A stretch of DNA of 32,500 nt from a virus. The translations under genes were made by a program, and so were the position numbers. The notes beneath the pieces are model-generated. The model worked only from the letters and a program-made list of their open reading frames with translations. It was not told where the DNA came from and made no database searches. Of this stretch, positions 2,477 to 32,500 are shown piece by piece (the first letter of the stretch is position 1; each line of letters opens with the position of its first letter). The stretch lies in IMG/VR virus record IMGVR_UViG_3300037882_000046, positions 1 to 32,500 of that record; one strand, written 5' to 3'.

Positions 2477-3427
2477 TTATACTGTGAACTTTACGATTTC
2501 CGCTGGGAATGCAAAGTTTACACCCATTTTGAACTCAGATACAAAACGCACTTGATCAGCTTCTTTTGCATAGAAAATTTCAAATCTTTCTTCTTCATTC
2601 AATAAGTCTGTACCAATGAATAAATTAGAAACTCTCATTGAATAGATCTTGTTTGTTCCGTTCAAACCTTGTACAGCAATCACCTTGATAGATGTACCTG
2701 GCAATACGAACTCAGAATCAGCTTTGCCATCATATGAATAGCTGAACATGTTTGCATTCTTTAATGCAATTGTGTAAGTTCTGAAAACATCCATACCACA
2801 GAAAATTGCAGTATCATCCTTTGCTACTACCTCAGCTGGGATTGCTTTATAAACTGCATCAAATACAGATATAACATTTGCAGCAGTGATTGCAGTTGCA
2901 GGTGTACCGAAATAAGTAGTAGTGTTTGCATCTACAATAGCACCGCCAGCAGCAGTTGCTAATTTGATCACACCATCAAACTTGTTTAAGTTACCATTTG
3001 CAGATGCTGTATCACCTTGCCATAAACCGATTTCTAATTGACTAGCAATTTTTTCAGTTTTTCTAGTTGAATACTCCTCAGCAAATACTACTGAATCATA
3101 TTGAGATCCAGCTGGTAAAGCCTTTTGCAAATATGTTCTTTCTAAATCTTTAGGACATAAAGCCTCATTTACTTTCATTTTACCTACAGTCACAGTTCTT
3201 TGTGTGAAAGTAGTAGTACCACTTGCATTGAAACCGCAAGATGATCCATCCTGAAAAAATGCGTCTGTGTCCATGATGTTAATCTTCTCAGAAGATTTAA
3301 CACCTACCATCACATTGCCCTGTGATTTGATTAAGCTAGCAGTTTTGCTACCTAATACAGATGAAGCTACCAAAAGATCTTGATTCTCTTTTGTGTAGGT
3401 TGCTAATGCTGATACATCAAATGCCAT
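2477..3427 (-). CDS. Major capsid protein (probable HK97 fold)
   Basis: A 316-residue protein starting MAFDVSALATYTKENQ. It directly follows the scaffold candidate and the XkdF-type protease, the standard head-gene order. Visible features are a long polar segment with EEYSTRKTEKIASQLEIGLW (about residues 120-140), a variable loop, and a C-terminal EADQVRFVSEFKMGVNFAFP. These are consistent with capsid proteins of Bacteroidota siphophages with an HK97-type fold, but the fold is inferred from context and not from conserved catalytic residues. It would assemble the icosahedral shell around the scaffold. Confidence 0.8.
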   Translation of the reverse strand: MAFDVSALATYTKENQDLLVASSVLGSKTASLIKSQGNVMVGVKSSEKINIMDTDAFFQDGSSCGFNASGTTTFTQRTVTVGKMKVNEALCPKDLERTYLQKALPAGSQYDSVVFAEEYSTRKTEKIASQLEIGLWQGDTASANGNLNKFDGVIKLATAAGGAIVDANTTTYFGTPATAITAANVISVFDAVYKAIPAEVVAKDDTAIFCGMDVFRTYTIALKNANMFSYSYDGKADSEFVLPGTSIKVIAVQGLNGTNKIYSMRVSNLFIGTDLLNEEERFEIFYAKEADQVRFVSEFKMGVNFAFPAEIVKFTV

Positions 3428-11146: not shown

Positions 11147-11628
11147 AAAAAAACCACAGATCCCAGCACCTCAGTGATAGGTGCAGCCAATATATCATTT
11201 GCATAGTCCTCATGCTTAGATGCATCAAATGGCATGTCTACCCATTTGCCGTACCAGTTCCTCTTTTGTGGGATGACCATACTAGCTGCAATCCTGTGGA
11301 TGTTCTCATTGAAATTAGATGCAAAATGCTTTGATTCTACATACCTAGATGTAGGCATATTTTTCACATCATAGACACATCTGTATCTTTTGCCTTTTGT
11401 GTGGATGTACTTTTCATGTTTCACATCAAAATTCTTTTGCAAAAATCTAGTCTTTCCCACAATCTTAAACAGCTTTCTGTCATCCATTTCTTTGATCTGC
11501 TGCTCAGTCAGATTTGTGATGATTGCAATAGTCTTGATAGACAGATCCTCATCTGTCATTCCCTCTTTCGTGTTTTGTAGTTCAGCCAGTTGCTGCCACT
11601 GAAATACATTTATGTTTTTCCATGTCAT
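10972..11628 (-). CDS. Tail assembly chaperone (G-like), first gene of the tail/head block
   Basis: A 218-residue protein starting MTWKNINVFQWQQLAELQN. The N-terminal region (TDEDLSIKTIAIITNLTEQQ and IKEMDDRKLFKIVGKTRFL) is of the kind found in Bacteroidota phage tail-tube chaperones. After residue 158 the gene runs into a T9 slippery run, and its last about 57 codons overlap the -1 frame that continues to 10859. It is the first gene after the repeat-rich intergenic region, so it probably heads the late operon. The G/GT pair would coat the tape measure during tail assembly. Confidence 0.7.
   Translation of the reverse strand: MTWKNINVFQWQQLAELQNTKEGMTDEDLSIKTIAIITNLTEQQIKEMDDRKLFKIVGKTRFLQKNFDVKHEKYIHTKGKRYRCVYDVKNMPTSRYVESKHFASNFNENIHRIAASMVIPQKRNWYGKWVDMPFDASKHEDYANDILAAPITEVLGSVVFFCQVYRNWIKISKDYLICQMMMTAKMSRLQAEILHQGLCSVLDGFIKPQLWQNMRKSN
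11143..11155 (-). other. Probable -1 programmed ribosomal frameshift site
   Basis: The minus strand reads G GTT TTT TTT TGT in the zero frame (codons GTT at 11154, TTT, TTT). Slippage by one base back on the T run places the ribosome in the frame that starts TTG TCA AGT GTA and stays open to 10859. This agrees in position, frame and overlap with the G/GT chaperone frameshift of siphophages. Efficiency cannot be estimated here. Confidence 0.75.
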
Positions 11629-11676
11629 ACCAATAAATAGAAAATGCCATCTGTTTAGACTGGCTGCGAATATGAA

Positions 11677-11706
11677 TACAGATAAATACAGATAAGTACA
11701 GATATT
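11677..11706. repeat. Three tandem 10-bp iteron-like repeats
   Basis: TACAGATAAA, TACAGATAAG and TACAGATATT follow each other without gaps about 50 bp upstream of the late operon's first start codon (11628). One copy per helical turn places all three on the same DNA face, as for cooperative protein binding. Confidence 0.75.
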
Positions 11707-11723
11707 ATAAACTATTGATGTAC

Positions 11724-11739
11724 CAAAATTATAATTTTG
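11724..11739 (-). promoter_or_regulatory. 16-bp palindrome containing a TAATTTTG -7-like box
   Basis: CAAAATTATAATTTTG is its own reverse complement. On the minus strand its second half reads TAATTTTG, which fits the Bacteroidota -7 consensus TAnnTTTG, but I find no TTG at the right distance upstream. It lies about 100 bases before the start at 11628 and could be the late promoter, perhaps requiring an activator. Confidence 0.4.
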
Positions 11740-11758
11740 TACGGATAATAACCGTACA
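11738..11758. promoter_or_regulatory. Operator-like inverted repeat TGTACGG-N7-CCGTACA
   Basis: Perfect 7-bp arms with a 7-bp spacer, centred just upstream of the possible late -7 box. It is one of the few CpG-containing sites in a CpG-poor genome, in keeping with a protein-binding site under selection. Confidence 0.55.
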
Positions 11759-11837
11759 CTTGTTATACTTTATGTATTAAAGTAGCATATATTCGTATGA
11801 ATAAATGTGACATCCTTACATAAAGTAAAGGTAAAAC

Positions 11838-11886
11838 TTGACTTATGTTGTAATAAAGTAAGTCAATAACTTTACTTTTTGACTTA
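11838..11886. repeat. Three TTGACTTA elements at 20-21 bp spacing
   Basis: TTGACTTA occurs at 11838-11845 and 11879-11886, and inverted (TAAGTCAA) at 11859-11866. Start-to-start distances are 21 and 20 bp, two helical turns. A wider inverted pair AAAGTAAAG/CTTTACTTT flanks part of the array. Confidence 0.65.
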
Positions 11887-11899
11887 TATGATCCGTAAA

Positions 11900-11932
11900 T
11901 GATTGATAAATGGCTCATAATTGATTGATAAA
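11900..11932. repeat. Two TGATTGATAAA direct repeats 22 bp apart
   Basis: Exact 11-base copies at 11900-11910 and 11922-11932 in the A/T-rich region between terL and the late operon. They are part of the same repeat-dense block. Confidence 0.6.
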
Positions 11933-11988
11933 ATCAGTAGTAATACTACTCTATTATCAAAAAATGTAAACTGTTCAAGTTTTGATAG

Positions 11989-12007
11989 TGTTCACGATTC
12001 GTGAACA
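11989..12007. promoter_or_regulatory. Operator-like inverted repeat TGTTCACG-ATT-CGTGAACA
   Basis: Perfect 8-bp arms around a 3-bp spacer, 16 bases downstream of the terL stop (12023). No T-run follows on the minus strand, so it is more like a repressor/activator operator than a terminator for terL. Confidence 0.55.
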
Positions 12008-12022
12008 TAAAATAAAAATGAA

Positions 12023-13192
12023 CTAGCCAAATGAATACCTGCCTGTGCCTCGTTTCATGTTAGTATTATTCCAGGCCAGTGCCAGTGCCATCACACAGTC
12101 ATCATGAAATCCACTAGGTGCAGAATATTTGACACCTGTAGCAGTGAACTCATATTCAAAGATGTTCAGTTCAGCTGTGATAGCACCATCAGGAAATGCA
12201 ATCTTTCTCTGCTGGATAGCTGCTGCTAGTCCTGTCATCAGTTGCTGCTTTGATGTTTGGCTAAACTTAAAGCCTGTGACATCCAGCCCCTCTGCCTGTA
12301 GATCCTCAAAGATAGGATCACCCACACCAGTGCTATCCATCAGGATAGGTGCAGCTGGCAGGTTTTTAATTCGCTGTTTGGTAGTTCTCCAATCCTCTTG
12401 AAATCTGTCAAAGTATGATACTGTGCCATTGCTGTCTAGGCCTATGATCACTGTGTAGTCAAATGACTTTGCTAGGTCAATGCCATAGCATACAGTGGGC
12501 TGTGTACTCATTGGATATGTACACTGCTGTATGAACATAGCACCAAATGGATTTGCTACATTCTCATTGAACTCTGCCATGTATTCCTGGCTAAATGCTA
12601 ATTCAGGCAGATCACCTCTGGCCTCATCTATCTCATTGGGATCTATGTATGGATTGTCATAGGTAGACATCTGCCAGCTAGTCCATCCTGGATCACCTGA
12701 TTTGCCCCTCTGCCATATTTTGTGAAAATCATTTTTGCCCTTAGGTGTAGACAGAAAGAATGCATCCCCTCTATAGTCAGTCAGTGTAGGTCTGATTGAT
12801 TCAGTCCATCTGTGCCATAGGTTTTTAACGAATGCAGCCTCATCAATGATGTTTCTGTGATACTTTCTAGATCTACCTGCCAGTTCATTCTCTAAACTCC
12901 AAAACTCTATTTTGCCACCTGTGATCAATTCAATGAACTGATGATCATTTTTCCTGGATATGATAGGCTCTAATGCATGCAGGCATTCATTGTATGTGCC
13001 ATCTAGTAGTTTGTATGTAGGTGTGAAATACCCTGCTAGTTTGCCAGCTATAGCAGTCTCAGATAGTAGATTGATAGCCAGGGCAGATTTGCCCCATCTC
13101 CGACCACAGGATAGCACAGAAAACCTTTTATGGCCATCCACTACTTTCTGCTGATTGATATGCAGTTCATTCAGGTGTACTGTCTTATCCAT
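12023..13192 (-). CDS. terL: Terminase large subunit
   Basis: About 389 residues from the ATG at 13192, which overlaps the stop of the upstream 42-residue gene as TAATG (an ATG at 13204 would add four residues). Walker A is GRRWGKS at residues 30-36, Walker B is IIDEAA at 115-120, and the ATPase motif FFLSTPKGKNDF follows. The C-terminal RNase H-like nuclease shows YGIDLAKSFDYTVI, ILMDSTGVGDP and HDDCVMALALA with the expected acidic residues. TerL powers DNA packaging into the prohead and cuts the concatemer. The small subunit gene lies a little upstream. Nothing is missing from the active sites. Confidence 0.96.
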   Translation of the reverse strand: MDKTVHLNELHINQQKVVDGHKRFSVLSCGRRWGKSALAINLLSETAIAGKLAGYFTPTYKLLDGTYNECLHALEPIISRKNDHQFIELITGGKIEFWSLENELAGRSRKYHRNIIDEAAFVKNLWHRWTESIRPTLTDYRGDAFFLSTPKGKNDFHKIWQRGKSGDPGWTSWQMSTYDNPYIDPNEIDEARGDLPELAFSQEYMAEFNENVANPFGAMFIQQCTYPMSTQPTVCYGIDLAKSFDYTVIIGLDSNGTVSYFDRFQEDWRTTKQRIKNLPAAPILMDSTGVGDPIFEDLQAEGLDVTGFKFSQTSKQQLMTGLAAAIQQRKIAFPDGAITAELNIFEYEFTATGVKYSAPSGFHDDCVMALALAWNNTNMKRGTGRYSFG

Positions 13193-15025: not shown

Positions 15026-15144
15026 CTACCCTGGCCTCTGTAGGCCTTTGGCCTGGGTGAATGTTTGTTGAAACTCTTTTTTGCATGCCCTGCCTTTCTC
15101 TTTCCAAAATTTACCTTTGTGCTACCTGTGCTACTTTTTGCCAT
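15022..15144 (-). CDS. Very basic small protein (40 aa)
   Basis: ATG at 15144 and TGA at 15022. The protein begins MAKSSTGSTKVNFGKRKAGH and ends PKAYRGQGR, with about 13 Lys/Arg in 40 residues. It overlaps the methyltransferase end by 14 bases and the next gene by four (ATGA). I recognise nearly the same KVNFGKRKAG...YRGQGR peptide from other Bacteroidota phages, which supports it as real. Likely nucleic-acid binding; role unknown. Confidence 0.75.
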   Translation of the reverse strand: MAKSSTGSTKVNFGKRKAGHAKKSFNKHSPRPKAYRGQGR

Positions 15145-15658
15145 ATAACTTTGACCAGTTTGTAGGGTGTGTCATTGGTTTGATTAATTGATACCCCTGT
15201 GTGTTAAAATATGCATCCCATTCATCCTGCTGTTTTATATTAATATGCCCCCATGCCTCATCATTGTCTGTCACCTGTGATGTAGAACTGAACAGGATGT
15301 ATTTAGGCTTGATCTTTTTAAACAGTGCATCTAGTTCCTTATCAGTCATGTGTTCTGCTGTCTCTATAAATGACAATAGATCTGTAGTGATAGGCTGATC
15401 AATGATCTGAATGTGTGGCACTTTCTCAGCCATGTAGTCTCTGTGTGACTGAAATATCTCAAAGGCCTTGATCTCATATCCTGCTTTGTGATATGCATCA
15501 GCATACACCCCTGTGCCTGCACCAAAGTCTAGCACTGTCCTGATGCCTAGATCTTTCACCTGTTCAGCTGTAGCAAAGCCCAATGCCCTGAATGCAGGAT
15601 TGTCTATGCTGATCCCCATGCTTAATTCAGTAGCTAAAAATTCTGCATCACTTATCAT
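15131..15658 (-). CDS. SAM-dependent methyltransferase (class I fold)
   Basis: A 175-residue protein. The glycine-rich SAM-binding loop VLDFGAGTGVYADAYHKAGY lies at about residues 42-61, followed by FEIFQSHRDYM with the acidic residue expected at the end of strand 2. A later segment ILFSSTSQVTDNDEAWGHIN is typical of small-molecule or sugar methyltransferases rather than the DPPY/PC motifs of DNA methylases. With a glycosyltransferase and an HNH nuclease nearby it may modify a glycan, capsid component or nucleotide. The substrate is unknown. Confidence 0.8.
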   Translation of the reverse strand: MISDAEFLATELSMGISIDNPAFRALGFATAEQVKDLGIRTVLDFGAGTGVYADAYHKAGYEIKAFEIFQSHRDYMAEKVPHIQIIDQPITTDLLSFIETAEHMTDKELDALFKKIKPKYILFSSTSQVTDNDEAWGHINIKQQDEWDAYFNTQGYQLIKPMTHPTNWSKLYGKK

Positions 15659-18818: not shown

Positions 18819-19133
18819 TTAGTTATTTGGCCATTCTTTTAAAATTACAGCACCATCACTTTCTGTAGCTATCAGGCAATGGCATCCTGATGTTTTTGCT
18901 TTGTTCATGAAATCTATTTGATACTGGCTCATTTTGTCATTGATTGTTTTCACCTCACAATAAACGCTAATTCCTGTGAACTTATTGTACCCAATGATGT
19001 CAGGTACACCTTTCAAACCATTGAATGTCCTGCCCTTGACAGCCAGATTGTTTTGCCTCCATACAAAACAGAATCTAGATTCTAGTGTTTTGATAGCCTG
19101 TGATGTGATCTGTGATACTGTCAATTCTTTCAT
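18819..19133 (-). CDS. VRR-NUC-type nuclease
   Basis: A 104-residue protein with the compact PD-(D/E)xK layout of VRR-NUC domains: FNGLKGVPDIIGYNKFTG (Asp of the PD motif near residue 44), then VYCEVKTINDKMSQYQIDFM (Glu/Lys of EVK near 60-62 and a Gln). Stand-alone domains of this size in phages act as structure-specific nucleases, possibly on replication or recombination intermediates. It is three bases from the sigma-like gene start and downstream of a palindromic site at 19160-19179. Confidence 0.88.
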   Translation of the reverse strand: MKELTVSQITSQAIKTLESRFCFVWRQNNLAVKGRTFNGLKGVPDIIGYNKFTGISVYCEVKTINDKMSQYQIDFMNKAKTSGCHCLIATESDGAVILKEWPNN

Positions 19134-21802: not shown

Positions 21803-22243
21803 TTATTTTGGTATTTGAATTTTGAATGTCACTGTACTTGATTTGATAGGCAGATCACCTTTGTGATATGTTTTTTCATGATCCTCAATAGCTTTCCTTT
21901 TCTCAGTCAGTTCAGCTATTTGCTGATCTAGTTCATCCCATCCTGGTAGATGGCTGTAGTCATATTTGACACTGCTAAACTCTGATACCTGGACACCATT
22001 GATTTCAGCTTTCTGCTTAGGATGTTTATACAGTTCATCCATCACATCCTTGCTGATTTTCTCTTTTATCATCTTTGTCAACTGTTCCATAGCATTCAGC
22101 CTGATGGCTGTCTCTAATGCGTTTAAATTGCCATTCTGTACCTGTTCTGCTATAGCCTCAGCCATTAGATCCAGGCCAAATTTAGTGGGTGAAATCTCAC
22201 CCACTCTAATGTCATCTAGTCTAGATAGTTTTTCTGATTGCAT
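21803..22243 (-). CDS. Hypothetical protein downstream of ERF
   Basis: A 146-residue acidic, helix-rich protein (MQSEKLSRLDDIRVGEISPT) with LPGWDELDQQIAELTEKRKA as a probable coiled coil near residues 99-118 and a beta-type end (STVTFKIQIPK). It overlaps the ERF-type gene by 23 bases. It resembles short partner proteins often found next to phage recombinases, but I do not know a function. Confidence 0.7.
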   Translation of the reverse strand: MQSEKLSRLDDIRVGEISPTKFGLDLMAEAIAEQVQNGNLNALETAIRLNAMEQLTKMIKEKISKDVMDELYKHPKQKAEINGVQVSEFSSVKYDYSHLPGWDELDQQIAELTEKRKAIEDHEKTYHKGDLPIKSSTVTFKIQIPK

Positions 22244-22886
22244 CTTTTTTGATTGTGAATTGTGATTTGATATTGTTTTCCTCTACTAGCTTACTGTTCA
22301 TGTGATACAGTGTGTTAAGCTGTCCAATGGTTTCACAGCTGTCTAGCACTAGCAATAGATCATCAGTAGTAGTGTAGACTTTTCTAGCCATTAAATCAAT
22401 TTCATTCAATACTGGCTCAGGCTCTTTCACTGTCTTTGCTACTACCTCATGGCTGTGATATTCAGTGTCTAGTTTTTCCTCTGTAGGGATCAGAAACATC
22501 TGCATCAAAGCATATTTCAATGCAGTAGACATTGCCTTGTTTGTAGACTTGTCACCTGAATCCATTGCCTCACCCTCTAGGACAGATTCAATGAATGATC
22601 CATCAATGGTGAAAAACTTAAACTGACATTTCGCAATGGTGTAGATCAATGCCCCACCTGATTTTGTCAGTCTTTCCTCTCTCTTAGATTCTAGTACATT
22701 GCTAGTGATGAACACTGCATGTTTTTTGAACAGGGGCTGCAGTGCATTGTACATGTCATCAATGCCTCTGAATGAATAGCCCTGCTGTGCATTCTTTTTG
22801 TTTTTACCTATAGCCTCAATGTCTTGCATGATGCTATTGATTGCCTGGTAGATTGTTGGATTTGCCATTTGTTTATTGGTTTTCAT
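22221..22886 (-). CDS. erf: ERF-family single-strand annealing protein
   Basis: A 221-residue protein. The N-terminal domain has NPTIYQAINSIMQDIEAIGK and AQQGYSFRGIDDMYNALQPL (residues 8-56), then VLEGEAMDSGDKSTNKAMST (about 100-120) and ALKYALMQMFLIPTEE. These are the hallmark segments of the ERF superfamily of phage recombinases, which anneal complementary single strands during recombination or circularisation. The likely start is ATG at 22886; a second ATG at 22868 begins MANPTIYQ. No exonuclease partner is visible other than the VRR-NUC protein. Confidence 0.9.
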   Translation of the reverse strand: MKTNKQMANPTIYQAINSIMQDIEAIGKNKKNAQQGYSFRGIDDMYNALQPLFKKHAVFITSNVLESKREERLTKSGGALIYTIAKCQFKFFTIDGSFIESVLEGEAMDSGDKSTNKAMSTALKYALMQMFLIPTEEKLDTEYHSHEVVAKTVKEPEPVLNEIDLMARKVYTTTDDLLLVLDSCETIGQLNTLYHMNSKLVEENNIKSQFTIKKDAIRKTI

Positions 22887-26252: not shown

Positions 26253-26759
26253 TTAAATTAGCACAAAGCCGTTTTTGTCTACTTTTCCAGCTGTGTGCAA
26301 TGCTCTCAATTCATATATAGATTTTCCTAGTGATTTTTGAAAATGTGGATCATCTTTGAATTTCCACTCACCGCCCCATTCATAGCCGTATCTCTTAAAG
26401 ATCTGCACTACCTCCATCCAGTCTGCTTTTGCATCTTTGTCAAAGTCTGTTTTGACATCCCATGATGCTGTCTCAAATGATCCATTTTTGTCTTTGTCTA
26501 CTAGCAGCACAATGTCAATGGCTAGGCCGTAATTGTGATAAGACTGCCCACCTTTCGCATTTGTGACCACTTTGCCAGGCTTTGATCTGCCCTGAGCATA
26601 AAGTACATCCTGCTCTGCAAATGTCCTTAAAGTGTACGCAAACCTGCATGCCGCTGATCCTGTCAGTGCCTCTACTATTTCATCATACATTTCTAGTGCT
26701 TCATCTCTTAGTTTAGGATGCAGCAGCTGAATCCTCTCTATTGTCTTTTGATCTTTCAT
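26253..26759 (-). CDS. Endolysin, M15-type peptidase
   Basis: About 168 residues from the ATG at 26759 (MKDQKTIERIQLLHPKLRDE); a TTG at 26777 gives a longer, less likely form. Zinc/active-site motifs of the VanY/M15 family are intact: QSYHNYGLAIDIVL (SxHxxGxAxD) near residues 73-86 and DDPHFQK near 137-143, with WGGEW before it. It would cut the peptide crosslinks of peptidoglycan at lysis. No signal peptide, so it needs a holin. It overlaps the holin candidate upstream. Confidence 0.92.
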   Translation of the reverse strand: MKDQKTIERIQLLHPKLRDEALEMYDEIVEALTGSAACRFAYTLRTFAEQDVLYAQGRSKPGKVVTNAKGGQSYHNYGLAIDIVLLVDKDKNGSFETASWDVKTDFDKDAKADWMEVVQIFKRYGYEWGGEWKFKDDPHFQKSLGKSIYELRALHTAGKVDKNGFVLI

Positions 26760-26949
26760 TCTTAGTAAATTTTTCAAATGCAGTCACCCCAAACACAGCA
26801 GCTGAATACCAAAGAAATCCCTCAAATACATATTGTTTTGAATTTGGCAGGTAGCCCAGCACTATGGCATTGATGAATGCAGCTATGCCAGCAAACCTTT
26901 TGCTGCTGACTAGGCCATCATTAGATAGTAAATGCTTTATAAATTGCAT
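26713..26949 (-). CDS. Holin candidate
   Basis: A 78-residue protein (MQFIKHLLSNDGLVSSKRFA) with two hydrophobic helices (about residues 18-34 and 43-58, GIAAFINAIVLGYLP and FLWYSAAVFGVTAF) and a charged C-terminal tail. The size and placement directly before the endolysin, overlapping it, fit a holin. The gene overlaps the spanin candidate by 29 bases. Holin function is inferred, as sequences diverge too much for proof. Confidence 0.72.
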   Translation of the reverse strand: MQFIKHLLSNDGLVSSKRFAGIAAFINAIVLGYLPNSKQYVFEGFLWYSAAVFGVTAFEKFTKNERSKDNREDSAAAS

Positions 26950-27409: not shown

Positions 27410-27624
27410 CTATCTTGTTTATTTTGCAGTGCTATGGCTAGCTTGTTTATTGTTTCTAGGATGTGGTCTAACTTTTTAGTGATCATGTCCTCTTGCTTTT
27501 CTACCATGCTCACTCTGACCTCTAATTCTTTCAGTTTTAAACTTACTTTTACATAGATGCTGATCAGTCCTATGATTATCATAATTGCTTGACCAGCCAT
27601 GAATACTGCAATGTTTTGTGTCAT
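27406..27624 (-). CDS. Small membrane/coiled-coil protein of the lysis cassette
   Basis: A 72-residue protein: an N-terminal hydrophobic helix (AVFMAGQAIMIIIGLISIYV, about 6-25) then a coiled coil (LKELEVRVSMVEKQEDMITK onward). One TM plus coiled coil recalls XhlA-type lysis accessory proteins, with inverted order. It has a four-base overlap with the spanin candidate and starts directly after the 138-residue gene. Could be a holin or lysis regulator. Confidence 0.6.
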   Translation of the reverse strand: MTQNIAVFMAGQAIMIIIGLISIYVKVSLKLKELEVRVSMVEKQEDMITKKLDHILETINKLAIALQNKQDR

Positions 27625-28041
27625 CTACTTAATATCTATCAATTTTAAAAATACTGGATAGATCTCATCAGTTTCAATGTCAGCTACTGAATCAATAGTC
27701 AAATCACCTGACCACAAAGTAGACACATCAATGTCTTTTTCTGCTGTCAATAGATCCTCTCTTTCTTTTGTTAACTCAGAAATCTTTTCATTTTGTATTG
27801 TGATCATACCATCCTTTTCCTCACCATACTTTTTGAATAGTTCTTGTTCAGCCTCAGAATACAATTTAAACTCAGCAGATACTACAGCATTCAATCTCTG
27901 CAAATACAGCTTTGTTTTCATGTTTGTCTTTTGCTTCATTAGCCCCTGACTGATGACCTCTGATGATCCATCTTTTGATTGCTTTGTGATCCCATTTAGT
28001 TCATAGTGTAAAGCCACTATTTCGTGTAGTTTTAAATTCAT
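27625..28041 (-). CDS. Hypothetical coiled-coil protein
   Basis: A 138-residue charged helical protein (MNLKLHEIVALHYELNGITK). Residues about 40-100 are Lys/Glu/Leu-rich and probably coiled coil. A C-terminal acidic beta segment (STLWSGDLTIDSVADIETDE) follows. It is located between the fibre module and lysis genes. No domain recognised; a tail or lysis link is possible. Confidence 0.68.
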   Translation of the reverse strand: MNLKLHEIVALHYELNGITKQSKDGSSEVISQGLMKQKTNMKTKLYLQRLNAVVSAEFKLYSEAEQELFKKYGEEKDGMITIQNEKISELTKEREDLLTAEKDIDVSTLWSGDLTIDSVADIETDEIYPVFLKLIDIK

Positions 28042-28070
28042 GCTTTCGTGTTTTTTATATATAGATTTTT

Positions 28071-28406
28071 TTAAACTTTTTGCGGATTTGTAAAAGGTAA
28101 CGGAAGTACAACAATAGGAGGGTTAACTTGATTCTCTATTTGAGCATCTAAATTAAGGTCTAAAGCCTCTACATCTATTGAAGCATCAAGCCACGAACAA
28201 ACTATGTCATATGTTAAGTCCTCGTAAGGTATAAAGTTAGTTACATCATCCTTTGAGAATGATTGACTTCCGTAAACCGAAGCAAAGTACTCTACTCCGT
28301 TAATTGTTTCTTTAGCGTTACGATTCCAATGAACATTTATGACAAAATCTGTAAGTGTTCCATCAGTTGGGATTGAGTCCATTTGGTTTATGTACCAATA
28401 TTTCAT
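28071..28406 (-). CDS. Fibre-associated protein within the imported module
   Basis: A 111-residue protein (MKYWYINQMDSIPTDGTLTD) with FVINVHWNRNAKETINGVEY and an acidic Leu-rich tail (LDLNLDAQIENQVNPP). This looks like the short protein commonly found directly after tail fibre genes of Bacteroidota phages. It overlaps the fibre stop by four bases (ATGA). Base composition is like the fibre's C-terminal half and unlike the rest of the genome, so the two were probably acquired together. Confidence 0.72.
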   Translation of the reverse strand: MKYWYINQMDSIPTDGTLTDFVINVHWNRNAKETINGVEYFASVYGSQSFSKDDVTNFIPYEDLTYDIVCSWLDASIDVEALDLNLDAQIENQVNPPIVVLPLPFTNPQKV

Positions 28407-29600
28407 ATTATTTTATTTTCTAATTGTTTAATTCTTGATTCTAATTCTTGTATGCTTTTTACTAATATTGGGACTAATTTAGAATAGTCAACACCTTGTA
28501 TATTTTCTCCATCCTTTTCTCCACTTACTGCACTTGGTAATACCTCTGCTAATTCGTGTGCTACAACTCCATATGTTCTTGTATTGTCTAATTTCCAAGC
28601 AAAGTCATATACTTTAATATTTGATAGTAAACTTAAGCCACCAAAATCTTTTAAATCTTCTTTTAATCTATAATCCGAACTTGTATTGTATGCAACACTT
28701 GAAGCATTTACTACAATAGAAGCAACATAAGTTTCACTTTGATTAAAAAAGTTAATCATATTGTTTCCGTTAGTTGCAACCCTCATATACACTGCATCAT
28801 CAACTGCTAATTTATAAGCCGAACTTGGTGCAGATGTTCTACCAATACAAACACTACCCCCCGATGTGATTCTCATTCGTTCGGTATCTTGTGTCAAGAA
28901 GATAAATGGAACTGCTGAAGTTGTATTAAATTGTGCAGCACCTACTGAATACATATTAAAACCCGAACTACCATCTGCTGCGGTTATTCTTACAACTCCA
29001 CTATTACTACCACTTTTTCCGTTTATATGCAAAGTAGTATAACCACTATAATCTGTTGGGCTACTCGTTCCGATTCCAACATTGCCACCGCTTGTGATAG
29101 TTAACTTAGGAGTTCCAAAAGATATTGTCGCTCCAGCCGTTCCACTTGCTGCACTATAAAACAAATGCTGACCACTTACTTGTCTATATTGTGAAGCAAA
29201 GTTTGTAGTGATGTATTTATTATTGTCGCCGGAGTCTACAAAAACATTATTTGATAAAATAGATTCATCTGTTGGTGCATATAAAGCAGCAGTATTGTTT
29301 AACTGCAAAACTTTTGCACTTGAAATCCAAGCACTTAAAGTCGCACCTATTGCAAGATTATTTGTAAATCTTCCTGTCCCATTCACATCTAACTTCGCAG
29401 CAGGAGCCGTGTTACCTATTCCAACATCACCAGCACTTGTTGCAAAGAATACCTCAAAGGCAGTTCCACTTGAATTGTAAGTTCTAATTCCAAAGTCAGT
29501 AATATAGTTACCGCCATATCCTTTTGCCTCTAAATAAGTTGTAGGACCATTACCCGCTGCGAATGTTATTTGTCTTGGAGTAGCAAAGCCTGTACCTGCT
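28071..29600. other. Compositional island (CpG-rich, GATC/CTAG-free)
   Basis: Reading 60-base lines, I count 32 CG dinucleotides in 28081-29580 against 5 in 1-1440. GATC and CTAG, which are frequent elsewhere, appear absent here by eye. The boundary falls inside the fibre gene near 29600 (about residue 350) and just before 28071. It signals horizontal exchange of the fibre tip module. Confidence 0.75.
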
Positions 29601-30667
29601 CTAAATACTACATTTTCAGATGCTACATTTAACCCTGTGCCACTAGCTACATTAATGTTTAATGCACCTGTAAGTGTGCCACCTGCTAATGGTAGATAGG
29701 ATGCTAAATCAGATGTCAATGCAAGTGTGCCATCAGCAGCAGGAAAATTATATGTGTAAGTAGTATTATTTGATAGTAAACTAGCAGAAAATGTTGCTGT
29801 CCTGATTAAAGCTGGGCCTTGACTATATTGGAAACTTAAACTATTTGATCCTGATGCAAAAATTGATGTGTACCCATTTAGTCCTGTACTGCCACCACTA
29901 AACTGTTTAAATCCTAAATATCCAAAACTGCTTGTATTATCTCCATTGATAAATGTACTACTATTTGATAGTGCATATATCCCTAAATTAAGTCCACCAG
30001 TTGCACCTGAATATGGCACATATGTAGATGCTGCACTTGATGTAGTCAAATATGTGCTAGAATCTACTGATCCATCTGCCTTTAAAAATTGACTTGATGT
30101 GCCGCCTGTTTTGACTAATGTAGTAGCTTCTAATGTTCCTACAATAGTAGCAGCATTCCCTGATCCCCCTGTTTTGTTTACATAGATTCCCTCACTATTG
30201 CCACCCTTTGTGATGTTCAAAGCTATGCCGCTGCCACTTGAATGATTAATAGCAAATGTATTACTACCCCCACTTGATGCAAAGCTACCAGTTGCACCTG
30301 TGATCACATCAGCAGTCAAATCAAAAGTACCCAAATTCACATTTGCAGTTGCACCTGTGTATGGCACATACCCACTCAAATCAATAGTAGCATTCACCCA
30401 ATTAGATCCATTATATTGTAGCACCTGACCATTGCTTGCACTAGTGATGATCACATCACTCAGCTGTGTCAATGAATAGTCACCCTCAGCAGGTACTACA
30501 GATCCAAATCTGCCATTGAATGAAACTACCCCTGCACCTGTCAATGTTTTTAAATCACTGATGGTAGTCTTGTATAAATATCCAGTACTAGGATCACCCA
30601 CAGCCATCAAATCTGATAGGCTCAATGATGCCCTACTGTCTAATTCGTTTATTTTCTTATTTGCCAT
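28403..30667 (-). CDS. Tail fibre with C-terminal S74 chaperone domain
   Basis: A 754-residue protein. The N-terminus (MANKKINELDSRASLSLSDL) and repeated YVPYTGATANVNLG / YVPYSGATGGLNLG segments at about 100 and 215 are virion-side and shaft features. The long Gly/Ser/Asn-rich beta shaft ends in an S74 intramolecular chaperone: NTSSDYRLKEDLKDF at about 661, then YDFAWKLDNTRTYGVVAHEL and KSIQELESRIKQLE. S74 domains trimerise the fibre and self-cleave before a conserved Ser. The fibre would bind the host receptor. The part after about residue 350 has foreign base composition. Confidence 0.88.
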   Translation of the reverse strand: MANKKINELDSRASLSLSDLMAVGDPSTGYLYKTTISDLKTLTGAGVVSFNGRFGSVVPAEGDYSLTQLSDVIITSASNGQVLQYNGSNWVNATIDLSGYVPYTGATANVNLGTFDLTADVITGATGSFASSGGSNTFAINHSSGSGIALNITKGGNSEGIYVNKTGGSGNAATIVGTLEATTLVKTGGTSSQFLKADGSVDSSTYLTTSSAASTYVPYSGATGGLNLGIYALSNSSTFINGDNTSSFGYLGFKQFSGGSTGLNGYTSIFASGSNSLSFQYSQGPALIRTATFSASLLSNNTTYTYNFPAADGTLALTSDLASYLPLAGGTLTGALNINVASGTGLNVASENVVFRAGTGFATPRQITFAAGNGPTTYLEAKGYGGNYITDFGIRTYNSSGTAFEVFFATSAGDVGIGNTAPAAKLDVNGTGRFTNNLAIGATLSAWISSAKVLQLNNTAALYAPTDESILSNNVFVDSGDNNKYITTNFASQYRQVSGQHLFYSAASGTAGATISFGTPKLTITSGGNVGIGTSSPTDYSGYTTLHINGKSGSNSGVVRITAADGSSGFNMYSVGAAQFNTTSAVPFIFLTQDTERMRITSGGSVCIGRTSAPSSAYKLAVDDAVYMRVATNGNNMINFFNQSETYVASIVVNASSVAYNTSSDYRLKEDLKDFGGLSLLSNIKVYDFAWKLDNTRTYGVVAHELAEVLPSAVSGEKDGENIQGVDYSKLVPILVKSIQELESRIKQLENKII

Positions 30668-30681
30668 GCTTATAAATAGTA

Positions 30682-31143
30682 TTAACTAGGATATTGGTAT
30701 GATGTAGGTACTTGACATCTGTCAGATGTGAATGGTAAATTCAGGCTGATGTCAGCTTTCCATGCCACTAGATTGTCTGGTGTGTCCTCAGTGATAGGTG
30801 TCAAACTCACATTTGTACTCATTTCAAATTCAAATTCATTGTACATCAGCTGTGCCAGGATGTCCTGTGCTACTGATAGCATATCACTCAATGCCTCTGT
30901 CTCATTTACTTTCTCTGCTAGCATTCTATCAAAGAAATACAAAGTGAAATTCAATGTCAATGTCCTAGTAGATATATTGCTAGGCACTACATCAAAGTAC
31001 ATGGCAGGATAGATATTGTCAGCACTCTCACCTAGAAACTCATCAAAGTCACCAAAATAAACTGTATTAATTTGTTCGTGTGCCTCTGCTATTGCTTTGA
31101 CCTGGTTTACTATTTGGTTTAATGTCAATGTTTTTGCTGCCAT
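30682..31143 (-). CDS. Tail completion/terminator candidate
   Basis: A 153-residue protein (MAAKTLTLNQIVNQVKAIAE) of alpha/beta type with NTVYFGDFDEFLGESADNIY and FTLYFFDRMLAEKVNE. Its size and place after the portal and connector gene and before the fibre match the tail terminator/head-tail joining proteins of siphophages. No diagnostic motif is seen. Confidence 0.62.
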   Translation of the reverse strand: MAAKTLTLNQIVNQVKAIAEAHEQINTVYFGDFDEFLGESADNIYPAMYFDVVPSNISTRTLTLNFTLYFFDRMLAEKVNETEALSDMLSVAQDILAQLMYNEFEFEMSTNVSLTPITEDTPDNLVAWKADISLNLPFTSDRCQVPTSYQYPS

Positions 31144-31202
31144 TTTTTGTTTGTTTTTCTAGATAAACCTTTAGCTTATCCTGATTTTTTCTACTATATG
31201 TT

Positions 31203-31796
31203 TTATTCGCCATCACAGCATCTGTTTATGTTACCCTGATATTTTTCCTCAAATGTCATTTTCTTATCACAGCAATCATCACCCAGCCAAATGCTAGTAG
31301 TGTATGATTGATTGTCTGGCAGGATAGTATCTACACCGTTCCCTGGATTGTTATACAGCGGAAATAGTACACTGGTAGATGCCTGTTTCAAATATTTTAC
31401 CAGTCTTTGTTTGTAAAATTCAGCCCTTGATCTGTATCTGTCTGCTACATCAATCATGTCCTGTGCAGATGGCAGATCAGTATTTTCACTGCTCTTTCTC
31501 ACCACACCTTTATTGTAAAACTGATAAGACAGCCCCATTGGCAATTCACTCATCACATAATACACCAGGCAGTTTGTGATATATCTGTCAATTAGATCAG
31601 CTTCATTTGCTGTCAAATTATTTGCTGCCACACCATCCTGCAATCTCTCATATAGTCCTGTGCCTAATGCTGGCAAAATGTACATGTCCTGTGCAGTCAG
31701 GATCTCAGGCAATACTAGTTTTTCATCTACATTTGCATGCAATCCTGTTCTTTCCTTTATTGTGTCTACTGAAATAAAAAGTATATTTCTGCTCAT
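31203..31796 (-). CDS. Head-tail connector candidate
   Basis: A 197-residue mostly helical protein (MSRNILFISVDTIKERTGLH, NVDEKLVLPEILTAQDMYIL, then GTGLYERLQDGV). Residues about 75-140 form helices, and the Cys-rich tail GDDCCDKKMTFEEKYQG with CC pairs near the end is unusual. It follows the portal by five bases. Helical proteins of this size right after the portal commonly form the connector ring. Confidence 0.68.
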   Translation of the reverse strand: MSRNILFISVDTIKERTGLHANVDEKLVLPEILTAQDMYILPALGTGLYERLQDGVAANNLTANEADLIDRYITNCLVYYVMSELPMGLSYQFYNKGVVRKSSENTDLPSAQDMIDVADRYRSRAEFYKQRLVKYLKQASTSVLFPLYNNPGNGVDTILPDNQSYTTSIWLGDDCCDKKMTFEEKYQGNINRCCDGE

Positions 31797-31801
31797 TGTT
31801 C

Positions 31802-32500
31802 TTATTTTTTAATTACTATGTTACTCACCCATGTATGTCTGCAGCTAGGGCTGTGCTGACCTGTAGGCATTGTCCACCAGCCGCCTCTCCTATCAAATAC
31901 ACTGTAGCCTAGTCTAGCAGTGATCTGTTGAATATCTGATCTGCTGTACACCTTATTTATTGCCATCAATCTTTTGCAGAATGATCTAGATGTAGCAGAA
32001 TCTGCCACTGCACCCACTCTTGCAAGTTTTTCAAAATCCCAGTCATATTTGTAAACTACTTTAAAATTTGTAGTCTGTGCAGGCTCACCTGGTGTCAATC
32101 TACTCAATGGCTTGACTGGCTGTCTTTCAATGATCCCACCTACTACCTTTTGTTTTAAGATGCCAGCTTTGTCTAGTCTTTCCATCACTTTGATGATAAT
32201 AGCCAGTTCAGTCTTTGTCACATCAGCCAAAACCTCAGGTGTGATCCTTTTATCCTTAGTCACCAAATCAATCACATTCTTTTCTAGATCACTCAATACC
32301 ATATCAGCAAATTCCATGGACATTGTCTCATTGTCATCCATTGCCTCTATTGAATGGAATTTCACATTCTTTTTTTTTAAAATACTATAGTCATCAGCAC
32401 TCTCACCAAACTGTGCAAAGATACCTAGCACATCATCCTCACTGAATTTCAATGCCTGTGTCTGCTCATCCTCACCTAGCCATGTGTTCACCTCATCATC
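31802..32500 (-). CDS. Portal protein, C-terminal part (continues from base 1-1425)
   Basis: The frame runs to the stop at 31802 and joins the 1425-1 frame through the repeated 99 bases. The final about 200 residues contain a charged helical region (MSMEFADMVLSDLEKNVIDL, TKTELAIIIKVMERLDKAG) and an end module VADSATSRSFCKRLMAINKV ... RRGGWWTMPTGQHSPSCRHT. This last part, with Cys/His/Trp residues, resembles the C-terminus of MuF-type minor head proteins attached to Bacteroidota phage portals. No separate MuF gene is visible, so the portal probably carries it as a fusion. Confidence 0.75.
   Translation of the reverse strand, partial: DDEVNTWLGEDEQTQALKFSEDDVLGIFAQFGESADDYSILKKKNVKFHSIEAMDDNETMSMEFADMVLSDLEKNVIDLVTKDKRITPEVLADVTKTELAIIIKVMERLDKAGILKQKVVGGIIERQPVKPLSRLTPGEPAQTTNFKVVYKYDWDFEKLARVGAVADSATSRSFCKRLMAINKVYSRSDIQQITARLGYSVFDRRGGWWTMPTGQHSPSCRHTWVSNIVIKK
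32402..32500. repeat. Terminal direct repeat, right copy
   Basis: Identical to 1-99. The unique circular length is therefore 32,401 bp. It lies within the portal coding sequence. Confidence 0.95.

Follow-up and report, generated by a model that had tools for sequence, protein, structure and literature searches.

The tail-fibre gene of the virus genome analysed here appears to be chimeric, with a native base joined to a distal tip that, together with the DUF7936 gene behind it, was very probably (probability about 0.9) acquired by recombination from another phage lineage. The window that we analysed, 32,500 bases long, is the entire virus record and carries a 99-nt direct repeat at both ends, indicating a complete circular genome of 32,401 bp. 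This genome codes for a terminase, a putative major capsid protein, a prohead protease, an endolysin, a glycosyltransferase and an ERF-type annealing protein, and the genes treated here (fibre, DUF7936 and their neighbours) lie on the minus strand (Table 1). A near search of a phage collection with positions 1-25,000 as query gave no match and hence no close named phage, a distant search with 28,071-30,667 as query returned Pelagibacter phage matches only, covering 3% of the query, and a search of genome contigs with the putative major capsid protein, seeking the host, found no relative.

Table 1. Features of the fibre locus and the candidate recombinase gene
Feature	Position	Strand	Evidence
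ERF-type single-strand annealing protein, candidate recombinase	22221..22886	-	PF04404, E 3.7e-20; PHROG 155 Erf-like, E 2.4e-30
Clade-conserved gene, downstream side of module	27625..28041	-	97-99% aa in closest relatives
DUF7936 gene, 111 aa, probably imported with the tip	28071..28406	-	PF25590, E 2.9e-19, 70.1 bits, cut-off 27
Right junction at DUF7936 stop codon	28072..28084	.	Ends of clade and donor-pool matches
Tail-fibre gene, 754 aa, chimeric (native base, probably imported tip)	28403..30667	-	PHROG tail fibre families; Peptidase_S74
Probably imported fibre tip, residues 351-754	28403..29617	-	Composition against recoding; pieces up to 82-95% aa in other-backbone phages
Peptidase_S74 intramolecular chaperone domain, residues 664-714	28526..28678	-	PF13884, E 1.3e-8, 35.5 bits, cut-off 22
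Conserved linker YLPLAGGTLTGALNI..., residues 324-340	29648..29698	-	93% nt over 41 bp with clade L009/L010; also in L071/L074
CpG-poor exchanged segment, residues about 219-323	29699..30013	-	Best protein match L134, 50-57%
Native fibre base, residues 1-218	30014..30667	-	94.7-96.5% nt with L003, L004, L005; backbone-like composition
Clade-conserved gene, upstream side of fibre	30682..31143	-	94-99% aa in close relatives; 46-49% in most donor-pool phages having it

Results

An earlier note on this DNA had described the C-terminal half of the fibre and the following 111-residue gene as a CpG-rich module free of GATC and CTAG, and a recount of positions 28,071-29,600 returned the same 32 CpG, 0 GATC and 0 CTAG. 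CpG odds are 0.66 within 28,071-29,620 against 0.11 elsewhere, and about 0.65 over the block that runs from about fibre residue 350 to the DUF7936 stop. A scan for CpG richness recovered 28,017-29,560 as the best segment, with a log-likelihood gain of 30.8 against a permutation maximum of 10.9 (n=100). The longest stretches of the genome without GATC (27,988-29,847) and without CTAG (27,456-29,643) both span the block (P ~3e-4 each under even spacing), which also lacks CATG, AGCT and GGCC and so holds none of the five palindromes tested. The description "CpG-rich" is right relative to the backbone but not in absolute terms, as odds of about 0.65 are ordinary; the extreme part is the backbone, in which the CpG shortage is accompanied by TG/CA odds of 1.48 and by an abundance of GATC, CTAG, CATG and AGCT. 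The whole window contains 157 CpG, 235 GATC and 202 CTAG.

The backbone (1-28,070 and 29,620-32,500) bears a C-to-T mark: at fourfold sites, third-codon C goes from 0.151 to 0.010 before G and T from 0.198 to 0.395, with A steady at 0.49. Its CpG shortage looks more like decay of methylated CpG than like general avoidance. No recognised DNA methyltransferase was found among the genes scanned, which held only a generic SAM methyltransferase domain at 15,131-15,658.

Gly, Ser, Thr and Asn abound in fibre proteins, and the tips are palindrome-poor in every relative tested, which could mean that the base composition merely reflects an unusual amino-acid make-up of the tip protein. As a control, the same proteins were rewritten with backbone codon usage conditioned on the next two bases; an initial model, conditioned on the previous codon, failed to yield CpG counts as low as those of backbone genes, and was dropped. 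Recoding of residues 351-754 predicts 7.3±2.4 CpG and 27.0±4.3 occurrences of the five palindromes, against 23 and 0 found, and recoding of DUF7936 predicts 1.5±1.2 and 4.4±1.5, against 9 and 0. Jointly, about 31 palindromes and 9 CpG are expected where 0 and 32 occur, so amino-acid content is not the cause of the composition, and we regard this explanation as exceedingly improbable. The fibre base (residues 1-218), which is equally fibre-like, is native in composition by the same test, as are the backbone genes left out of the model, with the exception of the gene at 2,477-3,427, which has a mild CpG excess (10 against 4.1). The module also lacks ACGT, TCGA and GCGC, but with only 1.0, 2.5 and 0.9 expected we dropped the idea that this records early purging after entry.

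The two halves of the fibre have different relatives. Ten contigs of the same clade as the window were found with the fibre (L003, L004, L005, L007-L010, L014, L015 and L025); over the compared segments they are 82-97% identical to the window in DNA, with conserved flanks and unrelated tips. Clade members, L003, L004 and L005 among them, match fibre residues 1-210 and both flanking genes at 81-100%, and backbone genes at 89-100% in these three, with lower values in distant clade members (58-90% in L006). In the closest relatives the match stops at 28,072-28,081 and restarts at 30,014, with nothing between; unrelated tips sit between conserved flanks in L004, L005, L007, L008, L010, L025 and others, and behind these tips DUF7936 is either missing or diverged (40-54%), or a different small gene stands there. 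By contrast, the matches of the window's tip and DUF7936 are in phages whose backbone is different (L071, L074, L085, L110 and others; hereafter the donor pool). Pieces of the tip are up to 82-95% identical in amino acids in L074, L024, L075, L110, L012 and others, and DUF7936 is 82-92% identical in most of the 80 contigs that were kept out of 121, as against 40-54% or absence in clade members. The virion genes tested in donor-pool phages are 40-67% identical to those of the window or give no match. Ancestry of the tip is therefore at odds with ancestry of the backbone, and comparing the fibre halves separately, as the earlier note had advised, gives different best-matching phages for each. 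No one donor fits the whole tip: its best pieces come from different phages, and residues 541-600 (60 aa) find matches of only about 40%, which suggests either that the direct donor is unsampled or that the tip is a stepwise mosaic.

The donor pool avoids the same palindromes genome-wide (observed/expected: CTAG 324/2020, CATG 275/1856, GGCC 14/452 and GATC 597/1737), and the module thus bears the word signature of the donor pool. As a separate observation, the GATC (235) and CTAG (202) of the window's backbone are about twice the expectation from base composition, while the phages that are partners in tip exchange avoid both words; either the clade of the window is protected from such restriction or exchange goes via intermediates.

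The switch within the fibre gene, which had been placed near residue 350, lies between residue 341, with the last native palindrome, and residue 369, where the module has its first CpG. The left join lies at a conserved fibre linker, YLPLAGGTLTGAL, with the crossover in or next to it at 29,640-29,755, a position resolved to the linker zone; the motif common to donor and recipient is the linker, carried by L009/L010 and L071/L074 alike, and the match to donor-pool L071/L074 runs inward at 82-83% nucleotide identity from 29,724/29,755. On the right, where the block had correctly been said to end at the next gene, clade members match from 28,072/28,081 onward and the donor pool from 28,080/28,084 inward, so that the last codons and the stop of DUF7936 are in clade-type DNA. 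The exchanged stretch is larger than the block that the earlier note described (28,080-30,014) and consists of two layers. Since 30,014 is where the window departs from its closest relatives, a second segment (about 29,700-30,014) has also been exchanged; it is CpG-poor but has no nucleotide match in L003, L004 or L005, and it looks like an earlier exchange or one of native-style composition. Separately, a domain at fibre residues about 96-199 (30,072-30,380) is 88-94% identical in donor-type L116 and L140, and exchange between lineages thus extends to this portion of the base.

The presence of an S74 domain identifies the C-terminal end as a fibre tip bearing a trimerisation chaperone, predicted to be self-cleaving. 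In phage fibres the receptor is bound by the part that precedes the chaperone domain, and receptor binding by the tip is likely here. DUF7936, which the earlier note had rightly counted into the foreign block, is also found downstream of the fibre gene in three further phages, either adjacent to it or separated from it by one gene, a position that would suit a tip partner. Its predicted fold (mean pLDDT 83) best matches other DUF7936 proteins or unnamed viral proteins; comparison of the model with the PDB gave nothing significant (top match LptE, E 0.08), a sequence search of solved structures matched neither DUF7936 nor the S74 region of the fibre, and DUF7936 was not found in the literature searched. 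As the predicted fold leads mainly to other DUF7936 proteins and to nothing solved, we can only infer its role, which would be in the function or assembly of the fibre tip.

Foreign composition of the tip was seen again in each relative tested. All nine relatives with enough sequence have palindrome-poor tips that are unrelated in sequence to that of the window, although only L025 and L006 among them have tips that are clearly CpG-rich too. According to the earlier note, a single lineage matching both halves, with the same composition shift in all relatives, would speak against exchange; the relatives do have the composition jump at the tip, but their tip sequences are unrelated, and this combination points to repeated import. 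The close relative L025 (6,800-8,300) has a strong foreign tip of its own at about residues 346-852, with CpG odds up to 1.04 and palindromes absent.

For 105 contigs, we regressed composition in the final 1.2 kb of the fibre gene on backbone composition. Slopes for the tip are 0.27 (CpG) and 0.22 (palindromes), compared with 1.01 and 1.06 for control genes and 1.04 and 0.82 for the initial 450 bp of the fibre. Relatedness makes the contigs non-independent, so that plain regressions of this kind exaggerate precision; after very coarse backbone clusters, one of which held 81 of the 105 contigs, had been replaced by tighter ones, a bootstrap over 16 clusters put the CpG slope of the base at 1.05 [0.67 to 1.37] and that of the tip at 0.20 [-0.09 to 0.45]. 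The base-tip difference for palindromes is weaker (0.57 [0.10 to 0.97]) and becomes unclear with 12 clusters. The slope of the downstream DUF7936 gene is about 0.8; DUF7936 usually tracks the backbone, and its co-transfer in the window is therefore rarer than exchange of the tip only.

In the endolysin gene (26,253-26,777) CpG odds are somewhat elevated (0.34), and the encoded protein shares 81-83% identity with that of donor-pool L098, L131 and L146, whose other virion genes are at 41-67%; this is perhaps another exchanged gene. A noncoding element of 65-70 bp at 11,820-11,890, which carries repeated TTGACTTA/AAAGTAAAG words, is 84-88% identical in L094, L102 and L160 at loci that are otherwise unlike; an Rfam search of 11,500-12,200 gave no match, the element folds weakly, and it may be an operator or an origin. 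Lastly, an 84-bp stretch at 18,981-19,064 is about 80% identical in L099, L117, L126 and L149; apart from it, the only DNA-level similarity of these contigs to the window is in the DUF7936 region.

Discussion

The exchange of a receptor-binding module that the earlier note had proposed is supported by discordant ancestry, by the junctions and by composition. We suggest that the distal tip (residues about 341-754, with its S74 chaperone) and DUF7936 were taken from phages of another lineage through crossovers at the conserved fibre linker, where the frame would be kept, and at the end of DUF7936. This would have happened too recently for loss of CpG and accrual of palindromes to have erased the composition of the donor. 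The likeliest agent would be the phage's own Erf-like protein, although we put the odds that it acted in this exchange at about even. Proteins of the ERF family carry out single-strand annealing, and Erf could have joined the DNA at the 41-bp island of homology. The acquired block would be expected to alter which surface receptor is bound, while the base would stay matched to the tail.

Since the record is of metagenomic origin, a join of two phages from one metagenome during assembly has to be considered. It would have had to fall in frame at a conserved linker on one side and at a stop codon on the other, both functional boundaries, in a genome that closes on its terminal repeat and at a site that varies among relatives from independent samples, and we judge such a chimera most unlikely. 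Similarly small is the chance that tips diversify in place under selection, losing similarity while their composition drifts without any import. The fact that tips are unrelated, and composition jumps, in all relatives at 82-97% identity would suit this explanation, but DUF7936 and several tip pieces are far more similar across lineages (82-95% aa) than the backbones are, and drift is unable to create shared sequence or to delete all sites of five words.

Identity alone gives no direction of transfer, and one could suppose that the lineage of the window was the source from which others took the tip, with the module retaining an ancestral composition. The word avoidance of the module is, however, that of the donor pool and unlike that of the window's backbone, and this type of DUF7936 occurs in about 120 contigs of other phages and was seen in no other clade member, which leaves a reversed direction with hardly any credibility. 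Acquisition of the tip and DUF7936 by the window's lineage is accordingly the reading that we adopt.

A broader proposal, which we hold tentatively and at somewhat less than even odds, is that the fibre tips of a broad group of aquatic phages make up a single common gene pool owned by no lineage. Tips would move between backbones faster than their composition adjusts, so that the composition of a tip would scarcely depend on that of its backbone (slope about 0.2-0.3 rather than about 1). In a CpG-poor lineage, early CpG decay and later palindrome return would then serve as two residence clocks, older imports being poor in both CpG and palindromes (L005, L008, L010) and fresh ones keeping both marks (the window, L025). 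A comparison of donor CpG sites with the window depended too much on related sequences to serve as proof of decay after transfer.

Tail-fibre tips decide which bacteria a phage infects. Avoidance of restriction sites by the donor lineage allows the imported DNA to be delimited with a precision of tens of bases, and tip exchange thereby becomes readable from sequence alone, with no need of the donor, and perhaps datable. If the decoupling over 105 contigs holds, the parts that recognise the host are common property of many lineages in these communities, and relatedness between phages tells little of host range.

Tip exchange itself is already known, and the present case is an unusually clean one. 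Tetart, Desplats and Krisch reportedly described in 1998 how the gp37 tip and the gp38 adhesin of T-even phages are exchanged by recombination between conserved motifs. T-even exchange of the fibre tip and the small gene behind it via conserved motifs is cited in PMC7468147 and PMC6027323. The loci are alike in that a fibre tip and a small following gene are exchanged with crossover at conserved motifs, but the proteins are unrelated: the 32-kb phage studied here has a tip with an S74 chaperone, followed by DUF7936, for which an adhesin role like that of gp38 would be hypothetical. In marine metaviromic islands, of which variable fibre tips are a main content, the fibre C-terminus and adjacent recognition genes vary and the N-terminus is kept among near-identical phages (PMC3909814); those islands rest on read recruitment, whereas here the donor lineage, the junctions and the restriction-word signature are identified. 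Pan-genomes of cryophages and other cryoconite phages combine a stable Bacteroidetes phage core with independently shuffled fibre variants (PMC7468147), a comparison among variants of one phage, while in the window the incoming piece has the composition of another lineage. Two points may be new, namely that restriction-word signatures are used to mark the foreign piece and that the compositions of tip and backbone are nearly independent.
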